Origin: Collinsella tanakaei YIT 12063
Lineage (GTDB): Bacteria; Actinomycetota; Coriobacteriia; Coriobacteriales; Coriobacteriaceae
Direction: 5' to 3'
DNA: 57,852 bases
Assembly: GCF_000225705.1 (NCBI RefSeq)
Contig: NZ_JH126474.1
Location: 40,800-98,651, forward strand
The translations under genes and the position numbers were made by a program. How positions within the stretch are numbered: position 1 is the first letter of the stretch; the number at the start of each line of letters is the position of its first letter. Under the pieces are notes generated by a model that saw only the letters and a program-made list of their open reading frames with translations, was not told where the DNA came from and ran no database searches. Below are positions 51,194 through 57,852 of this stretch, piece after piece.

Positions 51194-51205
51194 AGAGGAA
51201 ACGAC

Positions 51206-52390
51206 ATGCTGAATGCGATCGAGATTTCGCCCAAGGTCTGGTGGGTTGGCGGCATCGACTGGAACGAGCGCCTGTTCCACGGCTACACCACGGAAGCCGG
51301 CATCACCTACAACGCGTATCTGATCATGGACGAGAAGATCACGCTGATCGACACCTGCAAGGCGACCTTCTCCAACGAGCTGGTCCAGCGCATCTCCCAG
51401 GTTGTCGACCCCGCCAAGATCGACGTGGTCATCACCAACCATGTCGAGATGGACCACTCCGGCTCCCTGCCCGTGATCCACAAGATCGCTCCCAACGCGC
51501 AGATTTACGCTAGCGCTGGCGCCGGCGTCAACGAGGTCAAGGCCCACTTTGGCATCGAGGCAACGCCCGTCAAGAGCGGCGATACCCTGAACATCGGCGA
51601 GCGCACCCTCACCTTTGTGACCACCCCCATGGTCCACTGGCCGGACAACATGGTCACCTATTCCGACGTCGACCAGATTCTGTTCTCCAACGACGCCTTT
51701 GGTCAGCACTACGCCACCACCAAGCGCTTTGATGACGAGAACGACCTGTGCGAGATCATGAAGCAGGCCAAGAAGTACTACGCCAACATCGTGTGGCCGT
51801 ACGGCATGCAGGCGCACAAGGCGCTCGAGGCGGTCAAGGGCCTCGAGCTCAAGATGATCGCCCCCAGCCACGGCTGCATCTGGCGCTCCCACATCGACAA
51901 GATTCTGGAGAAGTACGAGGCTTGGACCACGTACCAGACCGAGGAGAAGGCTGTGGTGGTCTTTGACTCCATGTGGCACTCCACCGAGATGATGGCTCGC
52001 GAGATCTGCGATTCCTTCATCGCCGAGGGCATCTCCGCTAAGCTGATCGACGTCAAGGCCTCCCATATCTCCGATATCATGACCGATCTGTGCGATGCTC
52101 GCTACGTTGCCGTTGGCTCGCCTACCCTCAATTCCAACATGCTGCCCACCGTCGCCAGCTTCCTCACCTACATGCGCGGCCTGTCGCCCAAGAACGACCA
52201 GCGCATCGGTCTGGCATTTGGCTCCTATGGTTGGGCCCCGCTTGGTCCCAAGCAGGTGTACGAGGAGCTTGAGAAGGCTAAGTTCAACCTGCCCGTGCCG
52301 GTTATCACCCAGCAGTGGATCCCCAGCGAGGAGAACCTTGCCGAGCTGCAGGCCACTGTCAAGAAGATCATCGAGGATGCCCGCGCCTAG
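51206..52390 (+). CDS. fprA: Flavodiiron protein (A-type flavoprotein)
   Basis: The 394-residue protein has an N-terminal beta-lactamase-like diiron domain with H79-x-E81-x-D83-H84 (NHVEMDHSG) and further ligands in PMVHWPD and SHGCIWR. A C-terminal flavodoxin domain (about 250-394) has the FMN loops VVVFDSMWHSTEMMA and GSPTLNSN. Flavodiiron proteins reduce oxygen or nitric oxide to harmless products, a protective role in anaerobes. It has no fused rubredoxin, so an external donor is needed. Start: AGAGGAAACGAC precedes the ATG at 51206. It is followed by a terminator. Confidence 0.93.
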   Translation: MLNAIEISPKVWWVGGIDWNERLFHGYTTEAGITYNAYLIMDEKITLIDTCKATFSNELVQRISQVVDPAKIDVVITNHVEMDHSGSLPVIHKIAPNAQIYASAGAGVNEVKAHFGIEATPVKSGDTLNIGERTLTFVTTPMVHWPDNMVTYSDVDQILFSNDAFGQHYATTKRFDDENDLCEIMKQAKKYYANIVWPYGMQAHKALEAVKGLELKMIAPSHGCIWRSHIDKILEKYEAWTTYQTEEKAVVVFDSMWHSTEMMAREICDSFIAEGISAKLIDVKASHISDIMTDLCDARYVAVGSPTLNSNMLPTVASFLTYMRGLSPKNDQRIGLAFGSYGWAPLGPKQVYEELEKAKFNLPVPVITQQWIPSEENLAELQATVKKIIEDARA

Positions 52391-52800: not shown

Positions 52801-53028
52801 CGTGCTAGCAGGATGTCCCCATCTGCCGAAAATCCGTGCCAACGCCGTTGACCCGGCCTTCACACTCTGCGAATAATCAATCGAGACTCGTTATCCTTCA
52901 GCGCGTTTTGCCGTATCCGTGTGCTGTTTCCTGGCGAGACGGTAGTGCGAGGCGGCCTGATAGTCATGCCACTCCACGCGCGCGGTTATTGTCCGTGGGC
53001 GTGGACGATAAAGAATATGAGGTCACAT

Positions 53029-53538
53029 ATGGGCGCACCAACAAAATTCGATTTCGCTTTCGGCAGGTCGCTGAGGCGCGGTGCCGGCAAGATCGGTTGC
53101 CTCATCGATGTTGCGTTCGGCGTCATAGGTTTCGCCTCGTGCTGGTCCTTTTGCATGGAGCCCCGCGTCGACGATTGGGGCAACGTGACCCCGTCGGTTA
53201 TCGAGGCGGACGGCTTGCTCGCGGCGATCGGCCTATCGCTCTTTAGCGGCTGGGCGATGTTCATCCTTGCGTTTCTCTGGCACTCCGGCGTCATCTATCT
53301 GCGCCATATGTGGACCAGCCCTGCAGGTCGCGCCGCGATTGTCATTTTCACCCTGCCCATGGTCTTTGTCTTGCTGAGCGGCAACATCCTTGTTTTCCTG
53401 CTGCTGGCGGCAGCCTATCCAATGCTCGCCAGATGGATTATGCCGCTCGTGGGGTTGTTTACCGGCTGGTTGTTCAGCGAGGGGGATCCATCGGATACCG
53501 CCGCCGATTCCCTGGACAAAAGTTCAACGCATAAGTAG
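53029..53538 (+). CDS. Small integral membrane protein, unknown function
   Basis: The 169-residue protein has about four hydrophobic segments (roughly 20-41, 61-90, and two between 101 and 148) with a short basic N-terminus and an acidic C-terminal tail. I recognise no family. The ATG at 53029 has GAGG six bases ahead (ATGAGGTCACATATG); an ATG at 53017 and a frame extending to 52921 are weaker choices. It stands alone downstream of the phased-repeat region. Confidence 0.62.
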   Translation: MGAPTKFDFAFGRSLRRGAGKIGCLIDVAFGVIGFASCWSFCMEPRVDDWGNVTPSVIEADGLLAAIGLSLFSGWAMFILAFLWHSGVIYLRHMWTSPAGRAAIVIFTLPMVFVLLSGNILVFLLLAAAYPMLARWIMPLVGLFTGWLFSEGDPSDTAADSLDKSSTHK

Positions 53539-53845: not shown

Positions 53846-53924
53846 AAAGATAGGCAAATGATATCCCTCCACAGGTGTATCATAAATCGATATGGCTCAA
53901 AGACTGGGTGATTGAGGGGTCCCT

Positions 53925-56801
53925 ATGGCTTTGCTTGGCGTATTGATCGCGGTCCCGCTGGTGGTCGCGGCACTCATGCTGTTCCTCAAGCAGGACAGCC
54001 AACGCGATCCGGTTGCGATCGCGGGCGCGGGCGCGACGGCGCTTGCGGCTATCGCAACGGGCGTGCTCTATATGAACAACCCGCAGTTTTTCGTGATGTC
54101 GCCGGGCTTGTCGCTCGCGGGCAACTACGTGGCGGTCGCCATCGACCTGTTGCTTTGCGCGGTGGTGCTGGTGTACGCGGTGCGGTGGCGCAACCCGTTC
54201 GCCATGGCGATCGGCGCGGTGCAGATGGTCGCTTCCATCTGGTGCGGGTCTTTGGCCATGGCGCCGGAGGACGCATTCGTGGCCCCCATGTACATCGACA
54301 ACCTGTCGGTCATCATGGTGCTCATCGTCGGCATCGTGGGCAGCGTCATCTGCGTGTACGCCCTGGGCTACATGAAGGATTTCCAACATCATGAGGACGC
54401 GGCCGCAGCGCGCGAGGGCCGCGAGCCGCAGGATCGCCGCAACAAGTTCCTGGCGCTCATGTTCCTCTTCCTATCCGCGATGTTCGTCATCGTCCTCTCC
54501 GACAACATGGACTGGATTCTCGCCGGCTGGGAGATCACCACGGTCTGCTCGTTCCTTATGATCGGCTACACGCAAACGCCCGAGGCCAAGAAGAACGCCC
54601 TGCTGCAGATCAACCTCAACATGGTGGGCGGCCTGGCGTTCCACATCGCCGTGATCTACTTGCACACCATCCACGTGCCGCTGTCCATCAACGCTATGCC
54701 CGCCATCGCTCAGAGCGTGGATTCGTGGACGATGATCATCCCGCTGATGCTCCTCTCCGTCGCCGGCCTCACCAAGGCGGCGCAGATGCCGTTCCACAAG
54801 TGGCTGCTGGGCGCCATGGTCGCGCCAACTCCCACCAGCGCGCTTCTGCACTCGTCCACCATGGTCAAGGCGGGCGTGTTCCTGCTGGTCAAGCTGGCTC
54901 CGCTGTACCTTATCTATCCCGTGGCGTCCTTTATGGTGGTGGGCGTGGGCGGCATCACCTTTGTGCTATGCAGCTTCATGGCCATCTCGCAGAGCAACGC
55001 TAAGCGCGTGCTGGCGTACTCCACCATCGCCAACCTGGGCCTTATCTCCGCGTGCGCGGGCGTGGGCACCTCCGAGGCCGTGTGGGCGGCCATCTTCCTC
55101 ATCATCTTCCATACCGTGTCCAAGTCGCTGCTGTTCCTGTGCGTGGGTACGGTCGAGCATCGCATCGGCAGCCGCAACATCGAGGACATGGACGGGCTCT
55201 TCGCCCGCTTGCCGCGTCTTACCCGCCTGATGATGTTGGGCATCATGGGCATGTTCGTCGCGCCGTTTGGCATGCTCATCTCCAAGTGGGCGACGCTGGT
55301 TTCCTTTGCGGAGACCGGTAACGTCATCTTCTTGATCTTTCTGGCGTTTGGCTCTGCCGCCACGTTCTTCTTCTGGGCTAAGTGGCTGGGCAAGCTGGCC
55401 GGCGTGCCCCAGAAGGCGCAAAACGCGGAAGGCGGCGTGCACCGCACCGAGTGGTTTGCCGTGGGAACCATCTCCGCTTTGCTCATTGGCTGCTGTTTGT
55501 TGCTGCCGGTGATCTCCCAATACGTGATTGGGCCCTACCTGCAAGAGGTCTTCCAGATGGTGCCGCGCCTGATCGACGTGGACAACCTGGTCATTATGGT
55601 CGCCATCGTCCTGTTTATCGCCATCGTCCTGCTCACCCCGTGGGGCCGCGACAGCAAGAAGAAGCGCATCGCCGTATACCTGGGCGGCACGTGCACGGAT
55701 CCGGACGGTCGCCAGTACCACGGCTCCATGGGCCGCACTATGACCTCGTCCAAGCGTAACTGGTACATGACGGATATCTTTGGCGAGGACAAGTTGTCGC
55801 CCGCCGGCACCGTGATCACCGCGGCCTTGATGCTCATGAGCTTTGCCGCATGCTTTATCTTCGATGTCTCCTTCCTGGCTGGCGGAGCGTTCTTTGTGGA
55901 GCGCACCGTGCAGTTGGTGGGGCCGGGACTGCCTGGCATTCTGCTGGGCATTGTGGTCTTCGCCGTGGCGGCGCCCGTTGCCGGCTGCCTGCTGGACGGC
56001 CTTGACCGCAAGGTATCGGCGCGCATGCAGGGCCGCGTGGGCCCGCGTCTGCTGCAGCCCTACTACGATGTTCGCAAGCTGCTGCAAAAGGAGCAGGCCA
56101 GCGTCAACGCCATCGATGAGGCGTACATCACCTGCGCGCTCATCTTCTGCGCCATCGCCGGCGGCATGTTCATCAGCGGCTCCAACCTGCTTATGTGCGT
56201 GTTCCTGGTAACGCTCGCCACGCTCTTTGTCATCATCGCCGCGTACTCCGCGCGTTCCCCCTATGCGGACACCGGCGCCGACCGCGAGTGCCTGCAGGTC
56301 ATGAGCTACGAGCCCATGCTGCTCATCATGACGGTGGGCTTCTTTACCGCCACGCAGTCGTTCGATACCGCGCAGCTTACGCGCCTGGACGCGCCCATCA
56401 TCCTCTCGCTGGTGCCCATCTTTATAGGCCTGCTGTTCATCCTTACCATCAAGCTCCGCAAGTCGCCGTTCGACCTGTCCTATAGCCACCATGCTCACCA
56501 GGAGCTGGTCAAGGGTATTACCACGGAGATGAGCGGCCGCACCCTGGCCAAGATCGAGGTCCTGCACTGGTGCGAGAGTATCCTGTTCCTCATGTGGGTG
56601 GGCATGTTCTTCATCTGGAACTCTCCGGTCTCCATCGCCGTCGCGGTTGCCGTGGTGGCGCTCACCTGGTTCTTCGAGGTGTGGATTGACAACAACTTCG
56701 CTCGCGTCAAGTGGCAGGCGTGCCTTAAGTCCGCTTGGCTGGTGGCGCTTGTTATGGGCGTGGTCAACCTGTTCTACGTCCTTATCACCCCGTTTATCTA
56801 A
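53925..56801 (+). CDS. Fused antiporter-like and NuoH-like membrane subunits of an Ech-type hydrogenase (EchA-EchB fusion)
   Basis: This 958-residue protein joins two complex I-type membrane subunits. Residues about 1-575 are a NuoL/HyfB/EchA-type proton-pumping antiporter with the glutamate-bearing WEITTVCSFLMIGYTQ segment and KAAQMPFHKWLLGAMVAPTPTSALLHSSTMVKAG. A charged loop (about 576-625) leads into a NuoH/HyfC/EchB domain, seen in DRKVSARMQGRVGPRLLQPYYD from residue 694 and the SPFDLSYSHHAHQELVKG segment. The two are separate genes in known Ech and Hyc/Hyf operons. The frame is continuous without a stop, and GAGGGG lies five bases before the ATG. The product would couple hydrogenase electron flow to ion transport. 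Confidence 0.88.
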   Translation: MALLGVLIAVPLVVAALMLFLKQDSQRDPVAIAGAGATALAAIATGVLYMNNPQFFVMSPGLSLAGNYVAVAIDLLLCAVVLVYAVRWRNPFAMAIGAVQMVASIWCGSLAMAPEDAFVAPMYIDNLSVIMVLIVGIVGSVICVYALGYMKDFQHHEDAAAAREGREPQDRRNKFLALMFLFLSAMFVIVLSDNMDWILAGWEITTVCSFLMIGYTQTPEAKKNALLQINLNMVGGLAFHIAVIYLHTIHVPLSINAMPAIAQSVDSWTMIIPLMLLSVAGLTKAAQMPFHKWLLGAMVAPTPTSALLHSSTMVKAGVFLLVKLAPLYLIYPVASFMVVGVGGITFVLCSFMAISQSNAKRVLAYSTIANLGLISACAGVGTSEAVWAAIFLIIFHTVSKSLLFLCVGTVEHRIGSRNIEDMDGLFARLPRLTRLMMLGIMGMFVAPFGMLISKWATLVSFAETGNVIFLIFLAFGSAATFFFWAKWLGKLAGVPQKAQNAEGGVHRTEWFAVGTISALLIGCCLLLPVISQYVIGPYLQEVFQMVPRLIDVDNLVIMVAIVLFIAIVLLTPWGRDSKKKRIAVYLGGTCTDPDGRQYHGSMGRTMTSSKRNWYMTDIFGEDKLSPAGTVITAALMLMSFAACFIFDVSFLAGGAFFVERTVQLVGPGLPGILLGIVVFAVAAPVAGCLLDGLDRKVSARMQGRVGPRLLQPYYDVRKLLQKEQASVNAIDEAYITCALIFCAIAGGMFISGSNLLMCVFLVTLATLFVIIAAYSARSPYADTGADRECLQVMSYEPMLLIMTVGFFTATQSFDTAQLTRLDAPIILSLVPIFIGLLFILTIKLRKSPFDLSYSHHAHQELVKGITTEMSGRTLAKIEVLHWCESILFLMWVGMFFIWNSPVSIAVAVAVVALTWFFEVWIDNNFARVKWQACLKSAWLVALVMGVVNLFYVLITPFI

Positions 56802-56828
56802 GAAGACATCTAAAAGGAGGTGCCAACT

Positions 56829-57329
56829 ATGGGCTACTCATCCAAATCGCCATGGCTGATCCATTACGACGGGTCGAGCTGCAACGGCTGCGACATCGAG
56901 GTGCTCGATTCGCTGACGCCGCTCTATGACATCGAGCGCTTTGGCATCATCAACACCGGTAATCCCAAGCACGCGGACATCTTCTTGGTGACCGGGTCTG
57001 TGAACCATCAGAATATCAACGTGGTCAAGCACATCTACGAGCAGATGCTCGAGCCCAAGGTGGTTGTGGCGTGCGGTGCCTGCGCCTGCACCGGCGGCGT
57101 GTTCCGCGAGTGCTACAACGTGCTGGGCGGCGTGGACAAGGCGATTCCCGTGGACGTGTACGCCCCGGGTTGCGCCGCGCGCCCGGAGACCATCATCGAC
57201 GCGGTGCTGCAGGGCGTGAAGATTCTGGACGAGAAGGCCGAGCGCATGCGCCAGGGGCTTCCCGCCAACGGGGTCGACGCCGCGGCCGATGCGTGCACAG
57301 ACGCCGCCGCGTCCGGTGCAAAAGAGTAG
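56829..57329 (+). CDS. echC: NuoB/EchC-like hydrogenase small subunit
   Basis: The 166-residue protein belongs to the NuoB/HycG/EchC group that binds the proximal [4Fe-4S] cluster. Ligand motifs are CNGCDIE (C18, C21), ACGACACTGG (C85 region) and PGCAARPE (C115). An alanine-rich C-terminal tail of about 30 residues follows the domain. AAAAGGAGG lies before the ATG at 56829, and it begins 27 bases after the fused membrane-subunit gene. Order and CNGCD motif suit Ech hydrogenase better than the respiratory complex. Confidence 0.88.
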   Translation: MGYSSKSPWLIHYDGSSCNGCDIEVLDSLTPLYDIERFGIINTGNPKHADIFLVTGSVNHQNINVVKHIYEQMLEPKVVVACGACACTGGVFRECYNVLGGVDKAIPVDVYAPGCAARPETIIDAVLQGVKILDEKAERMRQGLPANGVDAAADACTDAAASGAKE

Positions 57330-57339
57330 GGGAGTGTAG

Positions 57340-57852
57340 ATGTATACCACTACGTTTGTGGAGACGCCGCTGTCTGACCTGCTGACGCGCGTGCAGACGC
57401 TCAAGCACGACGGCATTCGCTTTGTGCAGATGTGCGCCGAGAAGGATTCGCAGGATAACATCGACCTGCTCTACACCTTCTACGATGAGACCATGGAGAA
57501 CGCGCTTAACCTGGTGGTGCCGTTGAAGCCGGGTGACAAGGTGCCGTCGATCCAGGAGATGTACTTCGCCGCCTTCTCGTACGAGAATGAGACGCATGAC
57601 CTGTACGGCGTGCGCTTCATCAACATGAAGCTGGACTTTGGCGGGCACTTCTTCAACTTGGCCGCGGAGTCTCCCATGACCATCATCTCGCCCGAGCAGC
57701 GCGCCGCCCGCGAGAAGGCTGCCAAACTCAAGGCAGCACAGGAAGCCAAGGCTGCCAAGGCCGCCGCTGCCGCCCGCGAGGCCGCCGAGGCCGCGAGCGC
57801 CGAGCGCGCGCTGAGCACGTCCGCGGCCCAGGCGGATGCCGCTGCAGTCGCC
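57340..57852 (+). CDS. echD: NuoC/EchD-like 30-kDa subunit with Ala/Lys-rich extension (3' end beyond window)
   Basis: The frame runs off the right edge after 171 residues. Residues 1-118 resemble the NuoC/EchD 30-kDa subunit: DNIDLLYTFYD, PSIQEMYFAAFSYENETHDLYGVRF, then GGHFFNL. From about 119 a low-complexity Ala/Lys/Glu stretch begins, predicted to be helical. This may be a long tail, or a linker to a fused large-subunit domain outside the window. GGGGAGTGTAG precedes the ATG. It follows echC by ten bases. Confidence 0.8.
   Translation, partial: MYTTTFVETPLSDLLTRVQTLKHDGIRFVQMCAEKDSQDNIDLLYTFYDETMENALNLVVPLKPGDKVPSIQEMYFAAFSYENETHDLYGVRFINMKLDFGGHFFNLAAESPMTIISPEQRAAREKAAKLKAAQEAKAAKAAAAAREAAEAASAERALSTSAAQADAAAVA

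Follow-up and report, generated by a model that had tools for sequence, protein, structure and literature searches.

The Ech hydrogenase (EchABCDEF) is a group 4 [NiFe] hydrogenase whose genes are arranged in the order A, B, C, D, E and F. In this family, electrons pass from reduced ferredoxin through EchF, EchC and EchE to form H2, and EchB couples the reaction to the antiporter. EchA and EchB are usually separate chains. The membrane arm of the Escherichia coli formate hydrogenlyase (FHL) consists of a single antiporter-like subunit packed tightly with a single NuoH-like subunit (PMC9474812); the two are encoded by the separate genes hycC and hycD. The Pyrococcus MBH (6cfw) has the extra subunits MbhA-G in addition to separate MbhH and MbhM (PMC9474812). 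The complex I fusions described in a recent survey join subunit D with C, or D with B and C (PMC12361115); NuoCD and NuoBCD are fusions of neighbouring soluble subunits.

The locus described here lies in a window (the whole stretch of DNA that was analysed) of 57,852 nucleotides from Collinsella tanakaei YIT 12063. It resembles the Ech hydrogenase in its subunit domains and their order, in its ferredoxin-like EchF and in the [NiFe] motifs of EchE; it resembles the E. coli FHL in a membrane arm made of an antiporter-like and a NuoH-like subunit, and NuoCD and NuoBCD in the fusion of neighbouring subunits within the same superfamily. In contrast to all of them, the two membrane subunits are joined here in one polypeptide, and the operon has five genes where the usual Ech has six.

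Operon organization and identity of the hydrogenase

The operon features located within the window were as follows.

53914..53919, + strand: Shine-Dalgarno-like GAGGGG of the fused gene (sequence; anti-SD duplex energy -7.2)
53925..56801, + strand: fused echA-echB gene, 958 aa, ATG start (ORF list, Pfam and relatives' frames)
56815..56820, + strand: strong Shine-Dalgarno AGGAGG of echC (sequence; energy -13.1)
56829..57329, + strand: echC, NuoB-like small subunit, ATG at 56829 (Pfam Oxidored_q6, 2.3e-30)
57340..57852, + strand: echD, NuoC-like, cut by the window end (Pfam Complex1_30kDa, 5.2e-09)

The Ech-type order that the sequence-only reading had recognized downstream of the fused gene, NuoB-like followed by NuoC-like, was borne out: EchC and EchD are followed outside the window, on contig C8 and after a run of N in which the end of echD falls, by the [NiFe] large subunit EchE and the ferredoxin-like EchF. 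All six Ech subunit domains are present in one operon (A and B fused, C, D, E and F), which is of the Ech type. No formate dehydrogenase or HycB gene was recognized beside the operon in the part of the neighbouring ORFs that was scanned, and no Mrp-like small membrane subunits were present between the recognized operon genes.

EchE of the window genome carries the motif RVCGICSFGH and the C-terminal motif DPCISCTER, whose four cysteines are expected to bind the nickel-iron site. Across the EchE frames found, the first cysteine motif was present at 96 of 112 loci and the second at 85 of 112, the frames without a motif being short and many of them cut by the locus end. The best match of EchE in the PDB was the MBH alpha subunit (1.1e-69). 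Pfam placed Fer4 twice in EchF (two ferredoxin sites), and the [4Fe-4S] cysteines of EchC were present when the sequence was read by eye. The top-scoring models for EchE were those of NuoD/49 kDa, as would be the case for a hydrogenase-related complex that lacks the nickel-iron site and is not a hydrogenase; however, both cysteine pairs expected to bind nickel are in place and EchE also exceeded the PF00374 cut-off, which makes such a complex very improbable. We consider it quite probable that the operon encodes an Ech-type [NiFe] hydrogenase that is bound to the membrane, is linked to ferredoxin and has both membrane subunits in one chain.

At the 85 loci with the second motif, EchE (L002:9385-10479 and relatives) terminates three residues after DPCISC, which suggests that no C-terminal peptide has to be cleaved off.

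Genome context

The window genome contains hypD and a POR_N match, as well as other H2 or ferredoxin enzymes: Rnf-Nqr matches, an [FeFe] hydrogenase and a second [NiFe] hydrogenase, whose large subunit (G000:C3:184916-186406) matched its family model over the whole length. Because several of these enzymes coexist, any cellular role assigned to Ech is tentative. Upstream of the operon, a flavodiiron-type protein with ODP lactamase and flavodoxin domains is encoded at window positions 51203-52390, and a 205-aa ORF at 52921-53538, just before the operon, appeared hydrophobic in places by eye and had no Pfam match. A DUF362 protein with ferredoxin sites is encoded downstream of the operon (L002:15588-16811).

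Open frames of 986 aa had hinted at a further fusion, HyfB-HyfC, which was ruled out, since one stop separates the two genes at L114 (G002:C4). In the Hyf-type operon of this Collinsella-type genome the HyfB-like and HyfC-like genes, whose frames start at 1553 and 3575, are in the same frame and, with one stop between them, are one change away from a similar fusion.

Domains of the fused protein

The 958-codon frame at 53925-56801 (+ strand) contained zero internal stops, and it is divided into two parts.

53925..55880, + strand: EchA (NuoL/HycC-like antiporter) part, residues 1-652
55929..56801, + strand: EchB (NuoH/HycD-like) part, residues 669-958 plus stop (Pfam NADHdh; PDB sequence matches)

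Three Pfam domains scored above their curated cut-offs: Proton_antipo_N at residues 122-152 (1.4e-08), Proton_antipo_M at residues 197-477 (5.7e-49) and NADHdh (NuoH) at residues 676-952 (4.7e-41). The antiporter and the NuoH-like subunit are thus carried by one polypeptide, as the sequence-only reading had proposed. The EchA identity was supported by Pfam, by alignment with split EchA proteins and E. coli HycC, by the AlphaFold2 model and by antiporter fold matches; the closest PDB sequences to this part were the Mrp antiporter A subunit and NuoL-type chains. Among NuoH-like chains of solved structures, MBH gave the best match to the EchB part (MbhM, 1.9e-16), and HycD matched at 4.1e-13. The AlphaFold2 model of the fused protein, built from an alignment that left out L133 because its start is unsure, had a mean pLDDT of 80.1 and a pTM of 0.85. 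Fold searches returned matches mainly to the antiporter half and barely probed the EchB half, for which the proposed identity comes from sequence and not from the fold search.

Only one NuoH-like match was found in the window genome, together with a single place resembling the fusion, so that no separate EchB is seen that could act as a stand-in.

Residues E203, K284, K315 and K400 in the antiporter half, and E788 and E796 in the EchB half, were invariant in 34 fused proteins. The first four correspond to the antiporter Glu/Lys residues predicted to act in ion transfer in EchA, and Lys284 stands where HycC has Leu208. HycD E130, E138 and E203 aligned with E788, E796 and E860 of the fused protein, and HycD E189, E199, E201 and E206 with K843, H856, H858 and K863, in a loop whose alignment is uncertain. 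HycC Cys537 aligned with Gly587. These departures from HycC and HycD weigh against the proposed mechanism.

Distribution of the fusion

When 110 loci were read stop to stop, 77 were fused, 32 split and 1 incomplete. The 77 fused loci represent 53 distinct proteins, two of the collections overlap, and L033 was counted as split though an earlier stop already interrupts its EchA. In the order-level survey (395 genomes), 56 genomes of the window's family, Coriobacteriaceae, had a match and at least nine had none. The whole frame was uninterrupted in 55 of these 56; in the remaining one (G215) the match covered residues 1-416 only. All of the genomes with a match in a second genus, taken to be Slackia, were fused (10/10). 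In the rest of the order, each single match across both halves had at least one stop, among the matches listed. Two metagenome bins titled 'uncultured Coriobacteriaceae' (L099 and L104) were split, and in the tree they fell outside the family clade.

The fusion is real and conserved, and not a quirk of one genome. If it were an assembly or sequencing artefact of the window genome, the same frame would not be expected intact in nearly all family genomes with a match, nor in the complete chromosome of Collinsella stercoris DSM 13279 (L052), where it was also uninterrupted; no support for an artefact was found, and its probability is practically negligible.

The C. aerofaciens type of fusion (L016-L031 and others) shares about 59% identity and is far more diverged than the rest of the family; its linker has different letters and the same length. 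A phylum-wide scan with the NuoH model (396 genomes), tried as a probe for other fusions, was discarded as uninformative, because in GC-rich genomes open frames are long by chance and the reported frame length can span a stop.

The joint between the two halves

Three features were delimited around the joint.

55638..55784, + strand: charged loop (residues 572-620) joining the final two helices of EchA (alignment with split EchA)
55806..55880, + strand: last transmembrane helix of EchA, residues ~628-652 (split EchA ends; model helix 621-645)
55881..55928, + strand: fusion-specific linker, residues ~653-668 (~16 aa), predicted extracytoplasmic (absent from split relatives)

The charged loop had been taken for the linker between the halves (55,640-55,830). 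This was ruled out, since the loop lies inside EchA, before its last helix, and was found in 12 of the 12 split EchA proteins aligned. In the E. coli FHL structure, the loop between TMH15 and TMH16 of HycC is interpreted as homologous to the ND3 loop of complex I (PMC9474812), and it corresponds in position to this charged loop. Split EchA proteins ended at, or a few residues past, window residue 651, and split EchB proteins started at approximately residue 667. The stretch proposed for a check on a missed frameshift or stop, 55,640-55,830, was free of stops; it was misplaced, however, the junction being at about 55881-55928.

The AlphaFold2 helices around the joint spanned residues 552-570, 621-645 and 669-701, and the linker block at residues 651-660 was modelled with low confidence (pLDDT 62). 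From hydropathy, from basic residues on both flanking loops and from the model, which is unsure at this point, the linker is predicted to lie on the outer face. The helix order predicts that the last helix of EchA and the first helix of EchB would meet on that face whether fused or split; the earlier suggestion that the fusion forces a topology therefore loses its footing, as no new one would be required.

No linker indels were observed in 25/25 Coriobacteriaceae representatives. In 24 Coriobacteriaceae representatives, pN/pS over the linker region (residues 649-672) was 0.53. The EchA and NuoH cores gave 0.31 and 0.30, respectively, and the helix preceding the linker gave 0.59; the value for the Slackia linker region was 0.61.

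Split relatives and possible internal starts of EchB

Outside the fused clade, separate genes were found, as expected from the known systems: in the split relatives examined, from Eggerthellaceae and Clostridia, echA and echB were two adjoining genes. At 25 of 40 loci the two genes shared a reading frame (L033 was uninformative), often with one stop and a few codons between them, and the other pairs were overlapping (e.g. TAATG) or close.

The Shine-Dalgarno (SD) energy of EchB in split genes had a median of -11.4 (39/40), whereas the best SD energy at any start codon within residues 650-680 of the fused genes had a median of -3.35 (34/35 have one); the fused genes' own starts had a median of -8.5. 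The loss of the internal ribosome site is nevertheless graded, overlapping the range of split genes, and not clean: in the nearest split relatives, the Eggerthellaceae-type loci L135-L142, the EchB SD energy was only -5.7 to -10.7, and the strongest internal candidates in fused genes reached -7.7.

These sites bear on whether cells might contain, besides the full-length chain, a separate EchB produced from an internal start or by later cleavage, in which case the complex would partly have two membrane subunits. In the window, a GTG at residue 658 is preceded by GGCGGAG, with an SD energy of -6.4 versus -7.2 at the gene's own start. In a set of 54 distinct Coriobacteriaceae-type proteins, start codons were present at residue 658 in 28, at residue 670 in 24 (23 of them C. 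aerofaciens-type) and, as GTG, at residue 677 in 51. In all 23 C. aerofaciens-type proteins, residue 653 was encoded by ATG and residue 670 by GTG, the latter with an SD energy of about -6.1; this agreement says little, since these proteins are near copies. Against this, no start codon ahead of the helix was common to all (26/54 had none at 658 and 30/54 none at 670), the GTG at 677 sits inside the first EchB helix with a median SD energy of -1.7, and the internal SD energies were mostly weaker than those of split genes. Such patchiness indicates that a second start is not conserved family-wide, although one may be used within single groups. Internal initiation is thereby made less likely, and we judge a mixture of full-length chain and separate EchB to be unlikely.

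A single full-length chain is the reading that we retain. Given that the only NuoH-like match in the genome is the one in this chain, a fixed 1:1 stoichiometry of the two halves, as had been suggested, is a fair inference.

Origin of the fusion

Trees were built from EchA plus EchB without the linker columns, leaving out L033, L083, L086, L087 and L105, in which the motif was not found. Identical and near-identical rows were removed (99 to 65 rows), and 41 of the 65 were picked by hand for a smaller tree. The fused proteins were placed on one side of a branch with SH-aLRT support of 96 (65 rows) and 90 (41 rows). With EchE alone, Slackia grouped with Coriobacteriaceae (99/97). A joint tree of EchA, EchB and EchE, in which 6 of 42 rows were dropped, including its only C. 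aerofaciens-type row, left 36 rows and again united Slackia with Coriobacteriaceae (SH-aLRT 99); the alternative, with Slackia among the other Eggerthellaceae, was rejected (p-AU 0.0083). The tree groups were named after seeing the first tree, which weakens the topology test.

The joint result favours a single fusion with later transfer of the operon. Two separate origins, in Coriobacteriaceae and in Slackia, would accord with the placement of Slackia in Eggerthellaceae by the NCBI taxonomy, the other Eggerthellaceae examined being split, and with the dissimilar linker letters of the two groups. The corresponding topology was also tolerated by EchA plus EchB (p-AU 0.611, that tree being 4.1 log units better) and by EchE alone (p-AU 0.224). 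The joint rejection, the EchE grouping and the spacing between EchA and EchB, which was 80-86 residues in all fused proteins and mostly 83, speak against it, and we regard two origins as unlikely.

Proposed mechanism and significance

Under a single fusion event, the ancestor would have been an abutting gene pair like that of other Eggerthellaceae, in which the stop was lost and a few codons were gained. The second ribosome start would then have weakened, and one start would now yield both halves 1:1, with a linker of ~16 residues connecting the last EchA helix to the first EchB helix on the predicted outer face. In the resulting enzyme, reduced ferredoxin would donate electrons to EchF, and these would travel via EchC to the nickel-iron site in EchE, where H2 would be made. 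The EchB half would transmit the released energy to the antiporter half, which would move H+ or Na+ out. For the history as a whole, in which stop loss, a short linker and a weakened internal ribosome site gave an obligate 1:1, five-chain Ech that took the place of the six-chain form in Coriobacteriaceae and was transferred as an operon between this family and Slackia, we lean slightly towards acceptance.

No description of an EchA-EchB fusion was found in the open-access literature, subscription journals being mostly outside that search. Since named species with public genomes carry these genes, annotators may have seen the fusion without comment. It is a modest and apparently undescribed variation on a well-known enzyme. 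Group 4e hydrogenases are listed in a human-gut survey among those still needing characterization (PMC12578642).

If this reading is true, the locus would be a naturally occurring example of a fused membrane arm within the complex I superfamily. Because an antiporter permanently joined to its NuoH-like subunit cannot part from it, these bacteria allow a natural test of whether coupling or assembly requires a detachable pump. Purification may also be simpler with the membrane arm in one piece. If the fusion was one event carried by operon transfer, it would be a marker for tracing the spread of Ech among gut Actinomycetota.
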